This document shows, piece by piece, positions 31,135-38,059 of a stretch of DNA of 39,465 nucleotides. The position numbers and the translations under genes were made by a program. Below the pieces are notes generated by a model. The model was given only the letters and a program-made list of their open reading frames with translations. It ran no database searches and was not told the DNA's origin. Source of the stretch: Bacteroidales bacterium (GTDB lineage: Bacteria; Bacteroidota; Bacteroidia; Bacteroidales; UBA7960). Where the stretch lies: contig PWON01000131.1 in assembly GCA_003557385.1 (NCBI GenBank), positions 1 to 39,465 on the forward strand, in the 5' to 3' direction. Each line of letters starts with the position of its first letter. The first letter of the stretch is position 1.

Positions 31135-31148
31135 TGAACTATTGTTCA
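31135..31148. promoter_or_regulatory. Palindromic operator TGAAC-TATT-GTTCA upstream of the DUF134 operon
   Basis: A perfect five-base dyad with a four-base centre ends one base before the -7 box at 31150. It therefore covers about -15 to -29 of the promoter, where a bound protein would interfere with or assist sigma contact. The same dyad with eight-base arms occurs before the cobO operon at 37034-37053, at nearly the same distance from the -7 box. Confidence 0.6.
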
Positions 31149-31149
31149 C

Positions 31150-31157
31150 TATATTTG
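31150..31157 (+). promoter_or_regulatory. -7 promoter element for the DUF134-NifX-Mrp operon
   Basis: TATATTTG, an exact consensus match 21 bp before the DUF134 ATG, implying a transcription start near 31163. Confidence 0.6.
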
Positions 31158-31178
31158 CAGTGAATTAAATTAAACTCT

Positions 31179-31673
31179 ATGTCTCCAAGACATTTACGCC
31201 CTCGAAAAGTAAGCAATCCACCGCTGGTGTCCGGCATGAAGCCTTATGGCAACAAATTGCCTTCCGGGAAACCAAAGACTATTTTTCTTCAATTTGAAGA
31301 ATATGAAGCCCTCCGTTTGTGCGACTATGAGGGAATGAACCATCATCAGGCTTCTATTCAAATGGATGTATCCCGGCCAACACTGACACGTATTTATGCC
31401 CGCGCCAGACAAAAAATAGCCGAAGGCCTGGTTGAAGGAAAACAGATCATTATCGAAGGAGGCAAAGTCTATTTTGACAGCGACTGGTATGTCTGTACAT
31501 ACTGTGGTTGTTTTTTTAACCACCCTGACAAACAGTCTGATTTGAAACACTGTGCACTTTGCGGAAAAGATACAATTGCCCCATGCGAAACTGATCCGGA
31601 GGGATTTGACGAATTTCGCGGTTGCGGCAGGGCACATCGCAAAAGAAAACATCATAAAAACATTGATATATGA
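31179..31673 (+). CDS. DUF134-family DNA-binding protein with zinc-ribbon-like tail
   Basis: A 164-residue predicted transcription regulator. The N-terminal half is the DUF134 domain (MSPRHLRPRKV, then LQFEEYEALRLCDYEGM) with a sigma-70 region 4-like helix-turn-helix around HHQASIQMDVSRPTLTRIY (residues about 53-71). The C-terminal part has paired cysteines, CTYCGC and CALCGK, consistent with a small zinc ribbon, then a basic RKRKHHK tail. DUF134 proteins are regularly found beside NifX/ORP-like and Mrp genes in anaerobes, so a role as the local regulator is a reasonable inference. Its stop overlaps the next ATG (ATGA). The promoter carries the TGAAC-N4-GTTCA palindrome, so it may be autoregulated. 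Confidence 0.9.
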   Translation: MSPRHLRPRKVSNPPLVSGMKPYGNKLPSGKPKTIFLQFEEYEALRLCDYEGMNHHQASIQMDVSRPTLTRIYARARQKIAEGLVEGKQIIIEGGKVYFDSDWYVCTYCGCFFNHPDKQSDLKHCALCGKDTIAPCETDPEGFDEFRGCGRAHRKRKHHKNIDI

Positions 31674-31990
31674 AGGTTGCAATAACAAGCTCGGGCTATG
31701 GTTCCGACAGTAAATTAGACCAGCGTTTTGGACGTTGTACCGCCTTTGCCATTTACAACACTGAAGACGGTCACATTGAAATGATCTCCAACCCACACAA
31801 AGATGGCAGAGAAGGCGTTGGCCCTGCCGCCGTAAAATTGGTGGCTGAACATGGGGTTAAAAAAATCGTATCCGGAGAGTTCGGTATAAAAATAAAATCA
31901 TTGCTCGACAGCCTTGGAATCCAGATGATCATCCTGAAGGAACCAGACATGAGTATTGAGGAGGTCGTTGACATGTTAAAAAACAAATAA
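31670..31990 (+). CDS. NifX/NifB-type (dinitrogenase Fe-Mo cofactor/ORP-like) small protein
   Basis: A 106-residue single-domain protein of the NifX/NifY/NafY and MTH1175 family, RNase H-like fold. Conserved elements are MKVAITSSG at the start, LDQRFGRCTAFAIYN, and VSGEFGIKIKSLLDSLGI. Known members bind metal clusters: NafY and NifX carry FeMo-co or its precursor, and Desulfovibrio ORP carries a Mo-Cu sulfide cluster. No nif genes are here, so a nitrogenase role is unlikely; the context with Mrp and MinD/ferredoxin ATPases favours an ORP-like role. The ATG overlaps the DUF134 stop, and Mrp follows by 9 bp. Confidence 0.9.
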   Translation: MKVAITSSGYGSDSKLDQRFGRCTAFAIYNTEDGHIEMISNPHKDGREGVGPAAVKLVAEHGVKKIVSGEFGIKIKSLLDSLGIQMIILKEPDMSIEEVVDMLKNK

Positions 31991-31999
31991 CGTATTGCA

Positions 32000-32803
32000 A
32001 TGAGTGGCTTGTTTGAAAAAATACCCATGAAGGGGGTAAAACATGTTGTGGTTATCGCATCCGGGAAAGGGGGCGTGGGGAAATCAACAATATCTGCTAA
32101 CCTGGCAGTTTCCCTGGCTCGCGATGGTTACCGGACTGCCCTTGTGGATGCAGACATCTTTGGCCCATCCATTCCAAGAATGTTTGGACTGGAGCAAGCC
32201 AAACCGGAAGTGGAGCTTGTCAAAGGAGAGAAAATGATCATTCCGGTCGAAAAGTATGGGGTAAAACTGCTTTCTGTGGGTTTTTTTGCCGGGGCAAACC
32301 AGGGATTGATTTGGCGCGGTCCCATGGCCGCCAAAACCCTGACCCAACTTTTTGAAGAAACCTTATGGGGCAAAATTGATTATATGATCGTTGACTTTCC
32401 ACCGGGTACCAGCGACATACAACTTACCACCGCACAAAAGCTAGATATTTCAGGAGCACTAATCGTGACAACCCCGCAGGATATTTCGCTGAACGATGCC
32501 CGCAAAGCAGCCAGCATGTTCAATAACAAAGGCATTATGGTGCCCATTACCGGAGTGATTGAAAATATGTCGTGGTTTATCCCGGAACAGCACCCGGACG
32601 AGCGATACTATGTATTTGGCAAAGATGGAGGCCGGAAGCTTGCCCGGGAATTGCACGTACCATTACTGGCACAGATCCCCCTGGTTATTGACATAGGACA
32701 ATCTGCCGAACAAGGCCTGAGCGTATTCAACCTGAAACACAATGGAATTATCAAGGCCTTTGAAGAACTGGCCCGCCAGGTAGCAAATATATTGCCGGCA
32801 TAA
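32000..32803 (+). CDS. Mrp/NBP35-family Fe-S-carrier ATPase
   Basis: P-loop NTPase of the Mrp/ApbC/NBP35 family, 267 residues, likely a dimeric carrier or assembler of Fe-S (or other metal-sulfur) clusters. Deviant Walker A SGKGGVGKST (Lys at both ends), DADIFGPSIPRMFG as switch I region, and DFPPGTSDIQLT as Walker B/switch II. It lacks the N-terminal DUF59/MIP18-like domain of housekeeping Mrp, and the family's CPxC cluster pair is absent: after VIENMSWFIP comes a charged HPDERYYVFGKDGG. This loss is also seen in housekeeping Mrp of Bacteroidota. Its end lies 5 bp from the convergent MinD gene. Confidence 0.92.
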   Translation: MSGLFEKIPMKGVKHVVVIASGKGGVGKSTISANLAVSLARDGYRTALVDADIFGPSIPRMFGLEQAKPEVELVKGEKMIIPVEKYGVKLLSVGFFAGANQGLIWRGPMAAKTLTQLFEETLWGKIDYMIVDFPPGTSDIQLTTAQKLDISGALIVTTPQDISLNDARKAASMFNNKGIMVPITGVIENMSWFIPEQHPDERYYVFGKDGGRKLARELHVPLLAQIPLVIDIGQSAEQGLSVFNLKHNGIIKAFEELARQVANILPA

Positions 32804-32808
32804 TCTCT

Positions 32809-33678
32809 TTACAGGGTCTCCTGGAAAATTTTACGGTAGGCTGTTTTTATTTCAGAAACAATGCCGGAACCAGGGACCCATTCAGTTACTGTTTTGCAAT
32901 GCACCATAGCATCAACAATTATGGGATCAAAAGATATCCTGCCTGCAAGACGAATGCCATTGGCCTTACAAAAAGCTTCAATTTCTTTGCTTTGCGCAAT
33001 ATGCAAATCGTATTTATTGATGAGCACATAAGCAGGCAGTCTTAAAGATTTACACAAAGACCATATCCTTTTCAGGTCCAACATACCGGATTTAGAAGGT
33101 TCGGTAACGATAACCACCTGATCTACCCCGGTAATGGAAGCAATGACAGGACAACCTATGCCAGGTGGCCCATCAATAATGATATTGTTCATTCTCCGGT
33201 CCCTGGCATGTTGCCTGGCTTTTTCCCTGACCATGCTAACCAGTTTGCCTGAATTTTCTTCGCCCGGGGCCAGGCGTCCATAAACCAATTGACCATACCG
33301 GAAATTCCCCGAACACAATGTGCTTTCGCAGTTCTCCTCCATTTCAATGGCATGTTGAGGACAAACCCTGGCACATAAACCACACCCGTCACAGAAAACA
33401 CCTAAAACAATTGCATGCCCGGCAGCCATTGACAGGGCATCAAAACGGCAATAATCCACACATAACCCACAACCATCGCAAATCGTATCATCAATTACCG
33501 CTTCACGGCTACCTGTAAATGACCGGTGTTCTATATTCTCAGGATGAAAAAGTATATACAAGTTTGCAGCATCCACATCACAATCTGCCACCACCACTTC
33601 TTCGGCCAACGCGGCAAAAGCAGCAGCAACGGAGGATTTACCGGTTCCTCCCTTACCACTAATGATGGCTGTTTCCAT
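32809..33678 (-). CDS. MinD-superfamily ATPase with inserted two-[4Fe-4S] ferredoxin domain (second copy)
   Basis: A 289-residue P-loop ATPase of the COG1149 type: a MinD/ParA-like domain interrupted by a ferredoxin. The deviant Walker A is ISGKGGTGKSS at residues 5-15. The insert (about 55-110) has two CX2CX2CX3C motifs, CDGCGLCVDYC and CDGCGLCARVC, for two [4Fe-4S] clusters. Walker B is IIDGPPGIGCP. I chose ATG 33678, which overlaps the end of the upstream copy by 20 bp and starts directly at the first strand. Such pairs (Orp3/Orp4-like) accompany ORP in Desulfovibrio. They probably couple ATP hydrolysis to electron or cluster transfer; this is not proven. Confidence 0.93.
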   Translation of the reverse strand: METAIISGKGGTGKSSVAAAFAALAEEVVVADCDVDAANLYILFHPENIEHRSFTGSREAVIDDTICDGCGLCVDYCRFDALSMAAGHAIVLGVFCDGCGLCARVCPQHAIEMEENCESTLCSGNFRYGQLVYGRLAPGEENSGKLVSMVREKARQHARDRRMNNIIIDGPPGIGCPVIASITGVDQVVIVTEPSKSGMLDLKRIWSLCKSLRLPAYVLINKYDLHIAQSKEIEAFCKANGIRLAGRISFDPIIVDAMVHCKTVTEWVPGSGIVSEIKTAYRKIFQETL

Positions 33679-34522
33679 TCGCAACAATCAGATTGAACAT
33701 TGAAAATAGTTTTTCGCACCATGCTTTGTTTTGCATGGCTACCAAATCGCCTTTTGCATAAGCGGCTGCTATTGATTTATCAAAGGGGATCTCCATCAAT
33801 AAGGGAATCTTTTGTTGTTGCAAGAAGTCATATATGGCACGGTCTCCCATTCCACTGCGATTAATGATCACCCCACAGGATTTATCCAGGCCTTTTAGTA
33901 TGGTAATTGAATGCTTCAGGTCACTCAACCCAAAAGGAGTCGGTTCTGTAACCAGCAACACATAATCGGCTCGTACCACCGTTTGGATAAATGGACAGGA
34001 AGTGCCCGGTGGTGAATCCATAATTACCAGCGGGTCATCATTTGTTTCTCTGACCCCCGCCTGAATCACTTTCACCGGCGAATACACCCCCACACAAATT
34101 TGGGTTACAATCATAGAAGCACCCAATGACAAGTCAAAACGGCTCACCTTTCCCAAACATATTTCTTTTTCATTGATTGCTTTTTCATTGCAAGCGTAAA
34201 GGCATGCCCCACATCCATGACACAATTCTTCCAGAATACGGATGACCTTCACTGGAGGAATAATAAACACCGCATTGTAATTACAATATTCATGGCATTT
34301 GCCACAATAAGTACAACGTTTTGTATCAATTTCCGGAACCTTTAACACAACTTCCAAAGTGTGTTTTTTCTTGCCATTAAAGAAAATACCTGCATTGGGC
34401 GCCTCAGCATCACAATCCAGTAATGTGGGCACAAGACCTTCGTTTTGCAGTGCATAAAAAAGATTTGTAGCCACAAAGGTTTTTCCGGTTCCACCCTTGC
34501 CGCTGGCAACAGCTATTTTCAT
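33659..34522 (-). CDS. MinD-superfamily ATPase with inserted two-[4Fe-4S] ferredoxin domain (first copy)
   Basis: Paralogue of the next gene, 287 residues from ATG 34522. Deviant Walker A ASGKGGTGKT at residues 5-14. The ferredoxin insert (about 60-115) has CTYCGKCHEYC and CHGCGACLYAC, again two complete CX2CX2CX3C sets. Walker B/switch II is IMDSPPGTSCP. The ATG lies 4 bp after the stop of the NifX-like gene, and the 3' end overlaps the second MinD gene by 20 bp, so the two ATPases should be made together and may form a heterodimer. Longer in-frame starts (to 34564) would run into the NifX-like gene and are not favoured. Confidence 0.93.
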   Translation of the reverse strand: MKIAVASGKGGTGKTFVATNLFYALQNEGLVPTLLDCDAEAPNAGIFFNGKKKHTLEVVLKVPEIDTKRCTYCGKCHEYCNYNAVFIIPPVKVIRILEELCHGCGACLYACNEKAINEKEICLGKVSRFDLSLGASMIVTQICVGVYSPVKVIQAGVRETNDDPLVIMDSPPGTSCPFIQTVVRADYVLLVTEPTPFGLSDLKHSITILKGLDKSCGVIINRSGMGDRAIYDFLQQQKIPLLMEIPFDKSIAAAYAKGDLVAMQNKAWCEKLFSMFNLIVANGNSHH

Positions 34523-34526
34523 AGAC

Positions 34527-34946
34527 CTACCGTTTACACCTGCCGTGACCATGAAATGAATCATGGTTACAATAGTTGGCTTTTAATGTCAGGCGGTTTT
34601 CCAGGAAATCATCTACCAGTTCATCTGCAGACTTAACAGGTGCACCTGCAAATACATTAATCCGGTTCTTGTTAAACAACTCAATAGCCCGCTCACCAAT
34701 GCCGCCGGCAATTACATCTGTTACCTTAAACCCGGCCAACCATTTCGGATACAAACCAGGTACATGTTCCGGAGGCGTATAAGCCTCCCGGTCAACTACC
34801 CTGCCATGATCAACGTGAACAATGACAAATTTTTCACAATGGCCAAAATGTGATGACAACATGTCATTCTCAACAGGAATGGCAATGCAACAATGCATTT
34901 TCTGTTTTTCCAAAGGTTTATTTTCCTTTGGTTCATTTTTTTCCAT
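34527..34946 (-). CDS. NifX/ORP-like protein with His/Cys-rich tail
   Basis: A 139-residue protein from ATG 34946. After a charged linker (MEKNEPKENKPLEKQK) comes the NifX/MTH1175 domain: MHCCIAIPVENDMLSSHFGHCEKFV, which contains the family's SxHFGxC start, and VIAGGIGERAIELFNKNRINVF, the conserved GG-x-G helix. Both patterns are typical of this metal-cluster-binding fold. The last residues NHDSFHGHGRCKR form a His/Cys-rich tail often seen in this group and suited to metal binding. It is distinct from the shorter NifX-like protein of the opposing operon (31670). Between DUF5320 and the MinD pair, it is the best candidate for the cluster-carrying ORP-like subunit. Confidence 0.9.
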   Translation of the reverse strand: MEKNEPKENKPLEKQKMHCCIAIPVENDMLSSHFGHCEKFVIVHVDHGRVVDREAYTPPEHVPGLYPKWLAGFKVTDVIAGGIGERAIELFNKNRINVFAGAPVKSADELVDDFLENRLTLKANYCNHDSFHGHGRCKR

Positions 34947-34975
34947 ACTGTTCTGTTTGCTTACGATTAGATAAT

Positions 34976-35155
34976 TCAACTACCGGCCCTAAGTCTTTTC
35001 CCTTTTCCTATACCTCCATCAACCCTGCGTCTTTTTCCCATTCCGCGACCGAGTTGTTGATCCAGTTCTTTTTCAGACGGCTCTTTGCAGCGTCCCAGTT
35101 TGCGGCCTGTCAGGCGTCCCTTGCCTTCAGGGCCAGTTCCATCAAGTCTTGGCAT
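34976..35155 (-). CDS. DUF5320-type small basic glycine-rich protein
   Basis: A 59-residue protein on the minus strand: MPRLDGTGPEGKGRLTGRKL at the start, then GRCKEPSEKELDQQLGRG and a basic Gly/Lys/Arg tail. The opening pattern MP-x-x-DGTGP-x-G-x-G-x-x-TGR is characteristic of DUF5320 proteins, which commonly accompany NifX/ORP-like and MinD/ferredoxin genes in anaerobes. There is one Cys. Function unknown; it may be a small structural or cluster-binding accessory. It is the first gene of the minus-strand operon, 29 bp before the NifX-like gene. Confidence 0.8.
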   Translation of the reverse strand: MPRLDGTGPEGKGRLTGRKLGRCKEPSEKELDQQLGRGMGKRRRVDGGIGKGKRLRAGS

Positions 35156-35188
35156 AATGTTTCGTTTTTTAGGTAATACAAAAAATAT

Positions 35189-35203
35189 TGAACTAAATCA
35201 TTT
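35189..35203. promoter_or_regulatory. Degenerate copy of the TGAAC/GTTCA operator before the DUF5320 operon
   Basis: On the plus strand TGAAC-TAAA-TCATTT; read along the minus strand, a half-site AAATGA then TTTAGTTCA. GTTCA ends one base before TATTTTTTG (35179-35187), a -7 box with one extra T. The other arm is shortened by two bases compared with the copies at 31135 and 37034. Confidence 0.35.
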
Positions 35204-35273
35204 CCTGCATGGCAGCATGTCAACTCCCAGGGAAACACCCAGTCTTCTTGAAGGCACCGGACCGAACAAATAC

Positions 35274-36455
35274 TTATACATGATTCAGGGCCTGTTTGAG
35301 GTCTTCAATTATATCGTCAACATCTTCGATGCCCACTGACAATCTGACCAGGTCATCAGATATGCCAGCCGCCAACTTATGTTTTCTGCTCACGGCCGCA
35401 TGCGTCATCGAAGCCGGATGCTGAATAAGGGTTTCCACCCCACCCAGGGAAACTGCCAGGATGGCAAGACGCACATTATCCATGAGTTTCTCTCCAGCCT
35501 TAAACCCCCCTTTTAAACCAAAACTCATCATAGAACCCGGACCGTCCATTTGTTTCCTGGCCAATGCATACTGCGGATGCGATGACAGTCCGGGATACTT
35601 GATCCAGGAAACTTTCGGATGAAATTGAATAAATTCAGCCAGGCAAAGGGCATTGTTCTGTGCACGCTCAATACGCAAAGCCAGTGTTTTAAGACCGCGT
35701 AATGCCATATACGCCTGTGTCGGATCCATATTACAGCCCATATACGTCATCATATGACGTACTTTTTTATACACCCGGGGCTCTTTGGTTACAATAACCC
35801 CACCTACAATGTCTGCATGTCCATTAATAAATTTGGTAACAGAGTGTAACACCACATCTGCACCTAAATCCAGGGGTTTTTGCAAATAAGGTGAACAAAA
35901 GGTATTATCAACCACCAGTAACAGATTGTGCTTCCTGGCAATTTCAGCACAAGCCAGAATATCTGTAATTTCCATGGTAGGATTTGCAGGAGTTTCAATA
36001 TATAAAACCCGGGTGTTGGGCTTGATGGCGGCTATGATATTTTCGATATCAGACGTATTGACAAAACTTGATTCCACCCCAAACCTTGATAAATCAAACT
36101 CAAGCACACCCCTTGCCGGACCATACACCGCCCCGGTGCTGATAATATGATCGCCTGCGCCCAACAATGCCATATACACACTGGTTATGGCCCCCATCCC
36201 GGAACTGGTGGCAATGCCATCGTATGCATTTTCCAGTTCGGCAATGCTTTGCTCAAAAGCGCGTATGGTGGGATTTGCCAGCCTGGTATAAATATATCCA
36301 TCACTTTTTCCCGAAAAACAATCCGCACCGTGTTTAGCATTTTTAAACCTGAATGTAGAAGTTTGATAAATAGGCACTGTAGCACTGCCGTAAGGTTCTT
36401 CGATTTCACCTGCATGTATAAGCTTTGTGTTAAATCCTTTGTTTTTTGTATTCAT
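35274..36455 (-). CDS. Methionine gamma-lyase / cystathionine gamma-synthase-like PLP enzyme
   Basis: Trans-sulfuration enzyme of the Cys/Met metabolism PLP family, 393 residues, complete. PLP lysine K208 in HSVTKFINGH, D183 in VVDNTF, tetramer-contact YTRLANPT (57-63 region), and the C-terminal LAVSLGGVETLIQHPASMTH. Overall pattern is closest to methionine gamma-lyase (L-methionine to methanethiol, 2-oxobutyrate and ammonia), especially PGLSSHPQY, SLGG-x-ETLIQHPASMTH and RLSVGIED. However the active-site Cys of characterised MGLs (C116 of Pseudomonas putida, in YGC) is here P113 in YGPAR, so the activity may be beta/gamma elimination or synthase on another substrate. It is 21 bp downstream of cobO. 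Confidence 0.9.
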   Translation of the reverse strand: MNTKNKGFNTKLIHAGEIEEPYGSATVPIYQTSTFRFKNAKHGADCFSGKSDGYIYTRLANPTIRAFEQSIAELENAYDGIATSSGMGAITSVYMALLGAGDHIISTGAVYGPARGVLEFDLSRFGVESSFVNTSDIENIIAAIKPNTRVLYIETPANPTMEITDILACAEIARKHNLLLVVDNTFCSPYLQKPLDLGADVVLHSVTKFINGHADIVGGVIVTKEPRVYKKVRHMMTYMGCNMDPTQAYMALRGLKTLALRIERAQNNALCLAEFIQFHPKVSWIKYPGLSSHPQYALARKQMDGPGSMMSFGLKGGFKAGEKLMDNVRLAILAVSLGGVETLIQHPASMTHAAVSRKHKLAAGISDDLVRLSVGIEDVDDIIEDLKQALNHV

Positions 36456-36476
36456 TGCAATAGCCTTTAAAATATG

Positions 36477-36998
36477 TTAATACTCTATACCCTTCCGGGC
36501 CTCTACACCCTGATGGTAGTAATGTTTTATCTCTTTCATCTCAGTAACCAGGTCGGCCATATCATACAACACCTCCGGTGCAGACCTTCCGGTAAGCACT
36601 ATTTCCATATTGATCGGTTTATTCTTTAACAAATTGATGAGTTCGTCCAATGAAATTAATTGATATAAAAGGGCAATATTGACCTCGTCCAAAATGAGCA
36701 AATCGCACTCGTTGTTCCTTACAATGGCATCAATTTCAACCATCCCCCGGTGTGCTGCCTGAAAGTCCTCACGGCTAGGTTCATTTTTTATGAAGCATTT
36801 CCGGCCATATTGTTTCAAACGGATCGACGGGATCATTTTCAACACATCCAGTTCCGCGTAATGCATGCCCTTTACAAACTGTGCAATAAAAACATTTTTC
36901 CCCGCTCCCGCAGCCCTTATAGCTAAACCAATGGAGGCAGTGGTTTTGCCTTTTCCATCGCCTGTATACAATTGTATGTACCCTTTGTGTGATTTCAT
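36477..36998 (-). CDS. cobO: Cob(I)yrinic acid a,c-diamide adenosyltransferase (CobO/BtuR/CobA type)
   Basis: ATP:corrinoid adenosyltransferase, 173 residues, which attaches the 5'-deoxyadenosyl ligand to Co(I) corrinoids to make adenosylcobalamin forms. The P-loop YTGDGKGKTTA at the N-terminus, AQFVKGMHYAE, and the Walker B segment CDLLILDEVNIAL are diagnostic of the CobA/CobO/BtuR fold (not the PduO type). The family's C-terminal VTEMKEIKHYYHQGV-x-ARKGIEY tail, which closes over ATP, is present. No cobalamin riboswitch-like region or other cob gene is adjacent. It is first in an operon with the MGL-like gene, and its promoter carries the perfect TGAAC-N4-GTTCA palindrome. Confidence 0.94.
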   Translation of the reverse strand: MKSHKGYIQLYTGDGKGKTTASIGLAIRAAGAGKNVFIAQFVKGMHYAELDVLKMIPSIRLKQYGRKCFIKNEPSREDFQAAHRGMVEIDAIVRNNECDLLILDEVNIALLYQLISLDELINLLKNKPINMEIVLTGRSAPEVLYDMADLVTEMKEIKHYYHQGVEARKGIEY

Positions 36999-37026
36999 AA
37001 TCCCATTTTACTATTATAAGACCCTT

Positions 37027-37034
37027 CAAAGTTA
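37027..37034 (-). promoter_or_regulatory. -7 promoter element for the cobO operon
   Basis: On the minus strand TAACTTTG, an exact TAnnTTTG match 28 bp before the cobO ATG. It abuts the palindromic operator. Confidence 0.55.
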
Positions 37035-37053
37035 AATGAACTATGGTTCATTT
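37034..37053. promoter_or_regulatory. Palindromic operator AAATGAAC-TATG-GTTCATTT upstream of cobO
   Basis: Perfect eight-base arms with a four-base centre. The GTTCA half-site (minus strand) ends two bases before the -7 box TAACTTTG. Same core and placement as the dyad upstream of the DUF134 operon at 31135-31148. Confidence 0.65.
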
Positions 37054-37180: not shown

Positions 37181-38059
37181 ATGATAAACGATGCCCCAAT
37201 GCATCAATGGCTGCACAAAAAATGCCTGCAAAATTATATCATCCGGAATCCCGGGGCCGGGGCACCGGTTATGGCCGCATTTTGTTTTGTTTTCCTGATC
37301 CTTTATCGTCCCCTTGATACCCATCCCGGTCATTTTCTCGGATATGAAGCGACCATGGCCGTATATTGCCTGATAACAGGCCTGTCTGTTTTTGGCCTGG
37401 CAACATGGCTGAAGCATTTCAGATATTTTTCCGATCAGAAACAATGGACCATTCTCAGGGAAGTATTATCGATCCTGTTCGTGCTAACCGGCATGGGGTT
37501 TACCATATTTCTCACTGCATTTCTGATCGAACCCCCGGCTTACCGGTGGAACTTTCAAACACTGGCCGACTCCATTAAAAATGCCTACTTAATAGGCATT
37601 ATCCCTTTTGCTTTCTTTTCGCTGGTCAACACACGCTTTTGGCTTCCGTCAGAATATGTGATGGTAAAAAAAGAGGCCATGGGCCTGCATCCTGATGCCC
37701 CGGCAGAAGAAACAATCACCATCCGGTCGCAACTAAAAAAAGAAACATTGAAATTTCATCCGGATCAATTGATCTATGCTGAATCCGAAGGCAATTATGT
37801 AGTATTCTATTTAGAAGACAACCAACAGATCCAAAAAAAGATGATCCGCAACTCCATGAACAACATTGAGCAGGATCTTGAACAAATACCCCACATCATC
37901 AGGATACACAGGGCTTTTATGGTCAATTTAAAAAAGGTCCGCATGAAACGGGGCAACACGCTGGGTTATCGTCTGAAGCTTTCCGGTATAGAAACCGAGA
38001 TCCCTGTTGCCCGAAACCATACACGGCATTTTAATCAGCTTACCGAGCAAATGAGCTGA
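37181..38059 (+). CDS. Membrane-anchored LytTR-family transcriptional regulator
   Basis: A 292-residue protein with four predicted TM helices (about residues 30-45, 53-77, 95-115 and 135-152), a linker, and a C-terminal LytTR DNA-binding domain (about 190-285). The LytTR part shows FHPDQLIYAESEGNYVVFYL, then IRNSMNNIEQDLEQIPHIIRIHRAFMVNLKKV broken into its beta strands and helix, and the terminal IPVARNHTRHFNQL; these are textbook for LytTR. There is no receiver domain, so it probably senses a membrane or envelope signal directly. ATG 37199 (MHQWLHK) is an alternative start. The outer-membrane receptor gene follows after 162 bp on the same strand and may be a target. Confidence 0.9.
   Translation: MINDAPMHQWLHKKCLQNYIIRNPGAGAPVMAAFCFVFLILYRPLDTHPGHFLGYEATMAVYCLITGLSVFGLATWLKHFRYFSDQKQWTILREVLSILFVLTGMGFTIFLTAFLIEPPAYRWNFQTLADSIKNAYLIGIIPFAFFSLVNTRFWLPSEYVMVKKEAMGLHPDAPAEETITIRSQLKKETLKFHPDQLIYAESEGNYVVFYLEDNQQIQKKMIRNSMNNIEQDLEQIPHIIRIHRAFMVNLKKVRMKRGNTLGYRLKLSGIETEIPVARNHTRHFNQLTEQMS

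Follow-up and report, generated by a model that had tools for sequence, protein, structure and literature searches.

The stretch of Bacteroidales DNA analyzed here (39,465 nucleotides; hereafter the window) carries two copies of an inverted repeat, TGAAC-N4-GTTCA, each of which precedes a gene cluster that we propose is controlled by a member of the DUF134 (UPF0251) protein family. Operator 1, TGAAC-TATT-GTTCA (TGAACTATTGTTCA, 31135-31148, assigned to no strand), is a dyad match that is conserved 5' of DUF134 genes; it ends 1 bp before a -7 promoter box read from the sequence (TATATTTG, 31150-31157, plus strand), and the ATG of the DUF134 gene follows at 31179. Operator 2 (AAATGAAC-TATG-GTTCATTT, 37034-37053, likewise without strand) has 8-bp arms around the core TGAACTATGGTTCA (37037-37050), which stands 2 bp ahead of a minus-strand -7 box (TAACTTTG, 37027-37034, read from 37034 to 37027), core and box together matching 37027-37050; behind it, the ATG of cobO lies at 36998 on the minus strand. 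Both dyads stand 1-2 bp ahead of a TAnnTTTG box, exactly where the original prediction, made from the letters of this DNA, had placed them. That prediction also held that such a pair would be hard to get by chance, and the counts agree: the window has exactly two matches to TGAACNNNNGTTCA (TGAAC-N4-GTTCA), compared to an average of 0.01 in dinucleotide shuffles, and none of 100 shuffles contained two.

In the draft genome from which the window comes (2.13 Mb, 80% complete), the bare core occurred four times and the reversed control gave no match. The two copies beyond the window (contigs C107 and C224) fall within open reading frames (ORFs), while the core with its -7 box matched at the two window sites and nowhere else. 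Two of the four bare cores are thus coding, but the core with its box is not randomly scattered. Summed over 41 genomes, the bare 14-mer was weakly specific (118 forward versus 74 control matches), and we dropped it as a genome-wide marker; discrimination comes only from the core plus the -7 box.

Site 1 heads the plus-strand cluster DUF134-NifX-Mrp. The DUF134 gene (31179-31673; PF02001, E 3.7e-21) encodes the proposed regulator, a 164-aa protein with a helix-turn-helix (HTH) and a Cys-rich, zinc-ribbon-like tail; its profile score of 76 bits against a curated cut-off of 27 makes it a clear family member, and a structure model together with covariation in relatives points to T70 as its specificity residue. 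Overlapping its stop is a NifX/Nitro_FeMo-Co protein (31670-31990; PF02579, E 4.2e-17) that resembles Orp8 of the Orange Protein (ORP) system, followed by a single-domain Mrp/NBP35 Fe-S carrier ATPase (32000-32803; PF10609, E 4.8e-86) that is like Orp9 without the Di-Nase domain and matches the MrpORP model over positions 1-249 (E 1.2e-72), under the model cut-off. Site 2 heads cobO-MGL-DUF5320-NifX-MinD-MinD, all on the minus strand. This cluster begins with a CobO/BtuR corrinoid adenosyltransferase (36477-36998; PF02572, E 1.9e-62; NCBIfam PRK05986 above cut-off) and a pyridoxal phosphate (PLP) enzyme of the Cys/Met family (35274-36455; PF01053, E 6.2e-151) that is closest to methionine gamma-lyase (MGL), the models for which ranked top yet scored below their cut-offs. 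A small, 59-aa DUF5320 protein, recognized by profile and translation (34976-35155; PF17253, E 2.8e-10), and a NifX/Nitro_FeMo-Co protein (34527-34946; PF02579, E 5.2e-16) like the C-terminal domain of MrpORP (model positions 252-365, E 3.6e-32) come next. The last two genes encode MinD-type ATPases with 4Fe-4S motifs that are Orp3/Orp4-like; the first (33659-34522, within ORF 33659-34564) starts at the ATG of MKIAVASGKGG, and the queries for model and relative searches began two residues after this ATG, while the second (32809-33678, within ORF 32809-33687) was identified by profile matches and its start set at an ATG. From cobO on, the genes are separated by 21, 118, 29 and 4 bp, with a final overlap, and we infer that the cluster forms one transcript, although a promoter within the 118-bp gap is possible. 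The DUF5320 gene just misses the usual 60-aa ORF limit, and its relatives are the first gene behind the operator in several other genomes.

Since the cobO-MGL cluster continues into DUF5320, NifX and two MinD/ferredoxin ATPases, the two sites would mark the two ends of an ORP locus and co-regulate its parts. The original prediction had read them as one regulator acting on ATPases together with corrinoid and methionine genes; the shared regulator is strongly supported by the comparisons below, while its meaning shifts to two parts of an ORP locus. The window has two MinD-type ATPases, each with 4Fe-4S motifs (as Orp3 and Orp4), and NifX-type proteins (as Orp5 and Orp8), here two PF02579 proteins that match at the level of the class rather than in a one-to-one pairing. 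It has no two-domain MrpORP (Orp9, NTPase plus Di-Nase), and the separate NifX protein at 34527-34946 matches the Di-Nase part; the fused form is present in Peptoclostridium (L375), with the gene row DUF134-NifX-MinD-MinD-MrpORP. In the passages available on the orp1 and orp2 operons of Desulfovibrio vulgaris, two co-regulated operons likewise encode two MinD/ferredoxin ATPases, NifX-type proteins and Mrp/NBP35 (PMC3897727, PMC6345978), palindromic sites tie the operons together and the regulator also represses its own gene (PMC3897727). Those operons are described there as divergent and controlled by sigma-54, the activator DVU2106 and IHF (PMC3897727), whereas the clusters here converge, their promoters look to be of the -33/-7 type and DUF134 is put forward as their regulator. 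The window Mrp also differs by its missing fused Di-Nase domain, going by the excerpts on that protein (PMC6345978).

The arrangement recurs in a congener (G011, locus L181), in which the two convergent clusters are kept, each with an operator at its outer end, and the place of cobO is taken by a first gene that does not match CobO. We found cobO in 7 of 41 genomes, including that of the window, and it lies near DUF134 and MinD genes also in G239 (L191) and G029 (contig C133), where the strict operator was absent from the cobO loci examined. As a conserved direct target, cobO was rejected, with the strict operator plus box at none of six other cobO loci in the fetched DNA of relatives; a direct operator ahead of this gene was seen in the window only. 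Methionine-lyase-like genes are recurrent in such clusters. On the other side of operator 2, a gene for a LytTR-domain protein (37181-38059) is divergent from the cobO cluster.

DUF134 was present in 16 of the 41 genomes, and a check of the orthologous promoters in the seven of these that belong to the genus, counting the genome of the window, showed that all seven keep the dyad within two mismatches. Across 295 genomes of the order, the operator with its -7 box matched 138 sites in 99 genomes, compared to 6 for the reversed control. DUF134 was found in 155 of these genomes (153 above cut-off), and the two tend to occur together: 93 genomes have both, 6 the motif only, 62 DUF134 only and 134 neither (odds ratio, OR, 33.5, p 8e-27; genome-association p-values here and below ignore relatedness). 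Among the matches listed, 73 of the 138 sites lie 8-401 bp ahead of a DUF134 domain match, and 14 further sites have DUF134 within 1.5 kb by BLAST, for a total of 87 that precede a DUF134 gene; at another 25, the second site of the window included (24 without its own genome), an ORP-type gene lies within 1.5 kb. Genes near sites were named by BLAST against the window proteins (E up to 1e-4), except that DUF5320 neighbors were named by a loose motif, three of them being confirmed by Pfam. MinD-type relatives (E up to 1e-50) occurred in 100 of the 295 genomes, and DUF134 is present in 93 of these 100 (OR 28.5, p 7e-26); 49 of the best 50 MinD-type matches fall in DUF134 genomes, 34 of them no more than 8 kb from a listed DUF134. 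Perfect operators also precede other genes (L148, L164, L131 and L161), among them a 453-aa FAD oxidoreductase, recognized by eye, and glyoxalase-like proteins, one recognized by Pfam, which are possible further members of the regulon.

To describe the promoter, we pooled 225 DUF134 genes from fetched loci, with no duplicates by their 70-aa core, and found a dyad above the score threshold in 181; the 43 genes below it and one without a readable helix motif (L229) were left out of the operator tables. The score gives credit for symmetry, for TG at the ends and for a box close by, favoring a box within 2 bp without requiring one, and ignores the identity of arm positions 3-5. Of these dyads, 131 end exactly 1 bp before TAnnTTTG, and the logo of 130 of the 131 shows a weak TTG 6-8 bp ahead of the dyad. 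Since the dyad lies between this TTG and the box, it fills the spacer of a -33/-7 promoter, the promoter type of Bacteroidota. Of 149 genes with space for a second dyad, 37 have one that starts at +26 exactly, every other offset being seen three times at most, and such a pair was found outside the order too (L425). Dyad-to-box distances cluster at 1 bp (131/181) and at 9-11 bp (16/181), approximately one helical turn apart.

With the -33/-7 spacer taken up by the operator, bound DUF134 would most likely block RNA polymerase and so repress its own gene, and the extra operator of many relatives, 26 bp downstream, would lie near the expected start site. It could instead bind the same site and activate, for example by realigning a long -33/-7 spacer like MerR, and the position of the operator is indeed where MerR-type activators bind; the two groups of dyad-to-box distances, about a helical turn apart, would suit this as well. 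However, blocking is a better fit to the +26 dyad near the expected start and to the Roseburia dyad (L377), which overlaps a -35 TTGACA; the fold resembles sigma region 4, DeoR and SorC with no MerR protein in the best 50 Foldseek rows, and DeoR is described as a repressor in the passages available on it, so we consider activation unlikely. Location inside a core promoter would also fit an element of ORP operons that acts on promoter strength or at the RNA level and has no dedicated regulator. The first dyad is unlikely to be transcribed from that promoter, since it lies upstream of the -7 box, and the exact 26-bp second copy, paired changes in both arms (TGAGA/TCTCA, TGCAC/GTGCA and TGTGC/GCACA, in the order and outside it) and covariation with a protein residue all argue against such an element, to which we give almost no credence.

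This covariation provides the strongest argument for DUF134 as the protein that binds the operator. In the order-wide comparison, which covered 130 of 150 DUF134 matches among the matches listed, TGAAC was the commonest arm, and TGAGA, TGAGC with TAAGC, and TGCAC forms occurred too, many of them altered on both sides of the dyad. We then compared alignment columns with arm position 4 in 110 of 129 aligned genes, selected at a slightly lower threshold and not including the gene of the window, and the top column was residue X of the recognition-helix motif SRPTF-X-R (z 18.5; next column 7.6). A G was present in an arm for 18 of 18 genes with X=A/G but only 4 of 92 with X=T/S (p 3.7e-17), and in 22 of 23 and 12 of 158, respectively, in an enlarged, overlapping set. 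Residue X changes seven times on trees built without the motif. DUF134 had been named originally as the candidate regulator, a proposal that comparison strongly supports, given that the operator precedes DUF134 genes across the order and beyond and covaries with the presumed recognition helix. Another regulator might own the site and DUF134 be merely one of its targets; FNR boxes of the Crp/Fnr family share the 5-4-5 layout, though spacing is the only resemblance, and four genomes that are 91-99% complete have ORP-type sites with no DUF134 found and a working positive control. Such a regulator offers no reason for an operator that follows DUF134 from family to family and changes along with its recognition helix in and beyond the order, and because of this covariation we set a Crp/Fnr or other third-party regulator aside as improbable.

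Outside the order, DUF134 was found in 82 of 296 genomes. We scanned 23 of 30 loci as well as 20 regions chosen before operators were seen, the latter consisting of two second copies from family f136 (perhaps Chlorobia) and 18 of the 20 hits that were left outside this family. The test comprised 21 genes, namely 19 hits outside f136 (L409 included) and the two second copies, and the scan detected a dyad in 19 of the 21, all of which fit the code (16/0 versus 0/3, p 0.001): T occurred with A in 3/3, A/G with G in at least one arm in 13/13 and Q with G in 3/3. Residue Q was joined to A/G after its operators had been seen, and without it the counts are 13/0 versus 0/3 (p 0.002). Since most of them share one operator and related genomes, the 19 genes are not 19 independent cases. 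The other two of the 21 genes (L437 and L438, X=G) have TTGGCATATGCTAA, read by eye, and were kept out of the 19-gene test.

In plasmid records, dyads that were partly read by eye precede DUF134 in Roseburia (L377; TTATTGACATATGTCAATAA, overlapping the -35-like TTGACA), Treponema (TGACAAATGTCAG, two copies), Klebsiella (GCATATGCC, two copies), Proteus (GGCATATGC) and Peptoclostridium (GACATATGCC), while no related sequence was recognized upstream of the DUF134 gene of Salinivibrio. The family here ranges over Bacteroidota, Clostridia, Treponema and a conjugative enterobacterial plasmid, with two methanogens among the control genomes; a scan of viral contigs gave no DUF134 relatives. Matches to DUF134 were found in 186 plasmid records, mostly of Klebsiella and Citrobacter, and one Klebsiella plasmid (L382, 2498-3852) has a cassette of DUF134, NifX and a PaaI thioesterase. 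Plasmid records of Phocaeicola massiliensis and Parabacteroides distasonis (L379, 4001-4813, and L380, 4001-4814, cut by the record end) encode DUF134 proteins of approximately 270 aa with dyads of their own.

The structure model of the window DUF134, built with 36 sequences, has a mean pLDDT of 75, with block means of 90-97 over residues 41-90, and predicts helices at 39-50, 55-61 and 66-86, T70 being inside the third. The top Foldseek rows, none under E 0.09, were sigma region 4 and the DNA-binding domain of DeoR, the latter aligning over 40 columns at an rmsd of 0.7 (E 0.14) and ranking together with sigma region 4. By profile search, the nearest solved HTH was that of Bacillus subtilis DeoR (E 0.0019 over 37 residues), in an alignment that sets SRPTVSR on the window SRPTLTR. 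The passages available on this SorC-family protein (7bhy) describe an operator that begins ATTGAAC, and R34 and R39 contact bases (PMC11229326); the two proteins appear alike in this HTH motif and in a TTGAAC half-site. With a two-residue numbering offset, residue X of DUF134 would correspond to the DeoR residue just before R39. SorC proteins are described there as repressing from promoter-region operators (PMC11229326), as we propose for DUF134. DUF134 differs from DeoR in lacking any match to a sugar-binding effector domain, in place of which it has a Cys-rich tail or a NifX domain, and its dyad is 5-4-5, with tandem copies 26 bp apart. A C-terminal effector-binding domain of the SorC/DeoR kind (~250 residues) is absent from this 164-aa protein, in which Pfam gives DUF134 and a weak Sigma70_r4 only. 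The tail matched zinc-ribbon proteins at E 0.1-0.4 in the profile search; 128 of the 225 DUF134 tails have two CxxC motifs and 79 have four. Some family members are fused to a NifX domain: Pfam confirmed this for three proteins from other phyla, and several Bacteroidales cases were recognized by eye.

We put at roughly 0.8 the probability that the palindrome is the operator of DUF134 (31179-31673), which would control its own operon and the convergent ORP-type operon, most likely by autorepression. Several observations weigh against this. At 26 of the 138 sites, the surrounding 1.5 kb contains no DUF134 and no ORP-type gene, and the arms are perfect at 14 of the 26. Neither Pfam nor our own profile found DUF134 in the six motif-only genomes (G034, G127, G179, G221, G301 and G312), although this profile detected it in six of six positive-control genomes, including sister genomes of G127 and G221. 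The G301 site is imperfect and chance-like, but G034, G127, G221 and G312 are the 91-99% complete genomes with ORP-type sites; loss, assembly gaps or another binder could account for sites in genomes without DUF134. A perfect dyad was seen within 110 bp of the start of none of the 22 f136 genes scanned. The residue code also has pooled exceptions, with G in an arm for the 12 of 158 X=T/S genes given above and no G for one of 23 with X=A/G, and its two X=S exceptions, L290 and the plasmid gene L380 (SRPTLSR), have TGAGC. Moreover, L429, L436 and L439 combine X=Q with G, whereas the Roseburia gene combines it with TTGAC; since Q pairs with A in one case and with G in the others, the code holds for T/S versus A/G but not for Q. 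On the trees, the contrasts that are both supported and independent number only three or two; they agree with the code, and with so few of them the test is underpowered and falls short of significance. Finally, position (the dyad in the spacer, the second dyad downstream and the -35 overlap) is the sole basis on which repression would be favored over activation.

In the mechanism that we propose, a DUF134 dimer would read the two TGAAC half-sites with its sigma-4/DeoR-like HTH and would thereby control both DUF134-NifX-Mrp and the convergent cobO-MGL-DUF5320-NifX-MinD-MinD operon, which together appear to encode an Orange Protein-type metal-sulfur cluster system. The signal would probably be a metal, a metal-sulfur cluster or the thiol state, and its sensor the Cys-rich tail or, for some relatives, the fused NifX domain. 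A search by family name gave no paper title on the function of DUF134, UPF0251 or COG1342, and the operator motif strings were absent from the literature searched, subscription papers and preprints being outside the scope of both. The one mention of UPF0251 in the text available is a passage in a mutation table, and PMC10434189 was rejected as a DUF134 paper, since the passage seen contains DUF1349 and no whole-word DUF134.

DUF134 (PF02001) is annotated as being of unknown function, and the operator, targets and specificity residue are newly proposed here, from comparison of sequences. More tentatively, and with less than even odds, the family may consist of widespread metal-sulfur-cluster-responsive repressors in several phyla, which would combine a DeoR-like HTH with a zinc-ribbon-like or NifX (molybdenum-iron/copper cluster) sensor and read RC-ATAT-GY palindromes by a one-residue code (at arm position 4, T/S for A and A/G for G); the regulator of ORP-type systems would then differ from the sigma-54 control of Desulfovibrio. 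Altogether, DUF134 is likely a self-controlling regulator, and its operator, target set and specificity residue make it a testable one. The signal that lifts DUF134 off DNA would be the signal that the ORP system answers, and would give a handle on the purpose of the ORP metal-sulfur proteins.

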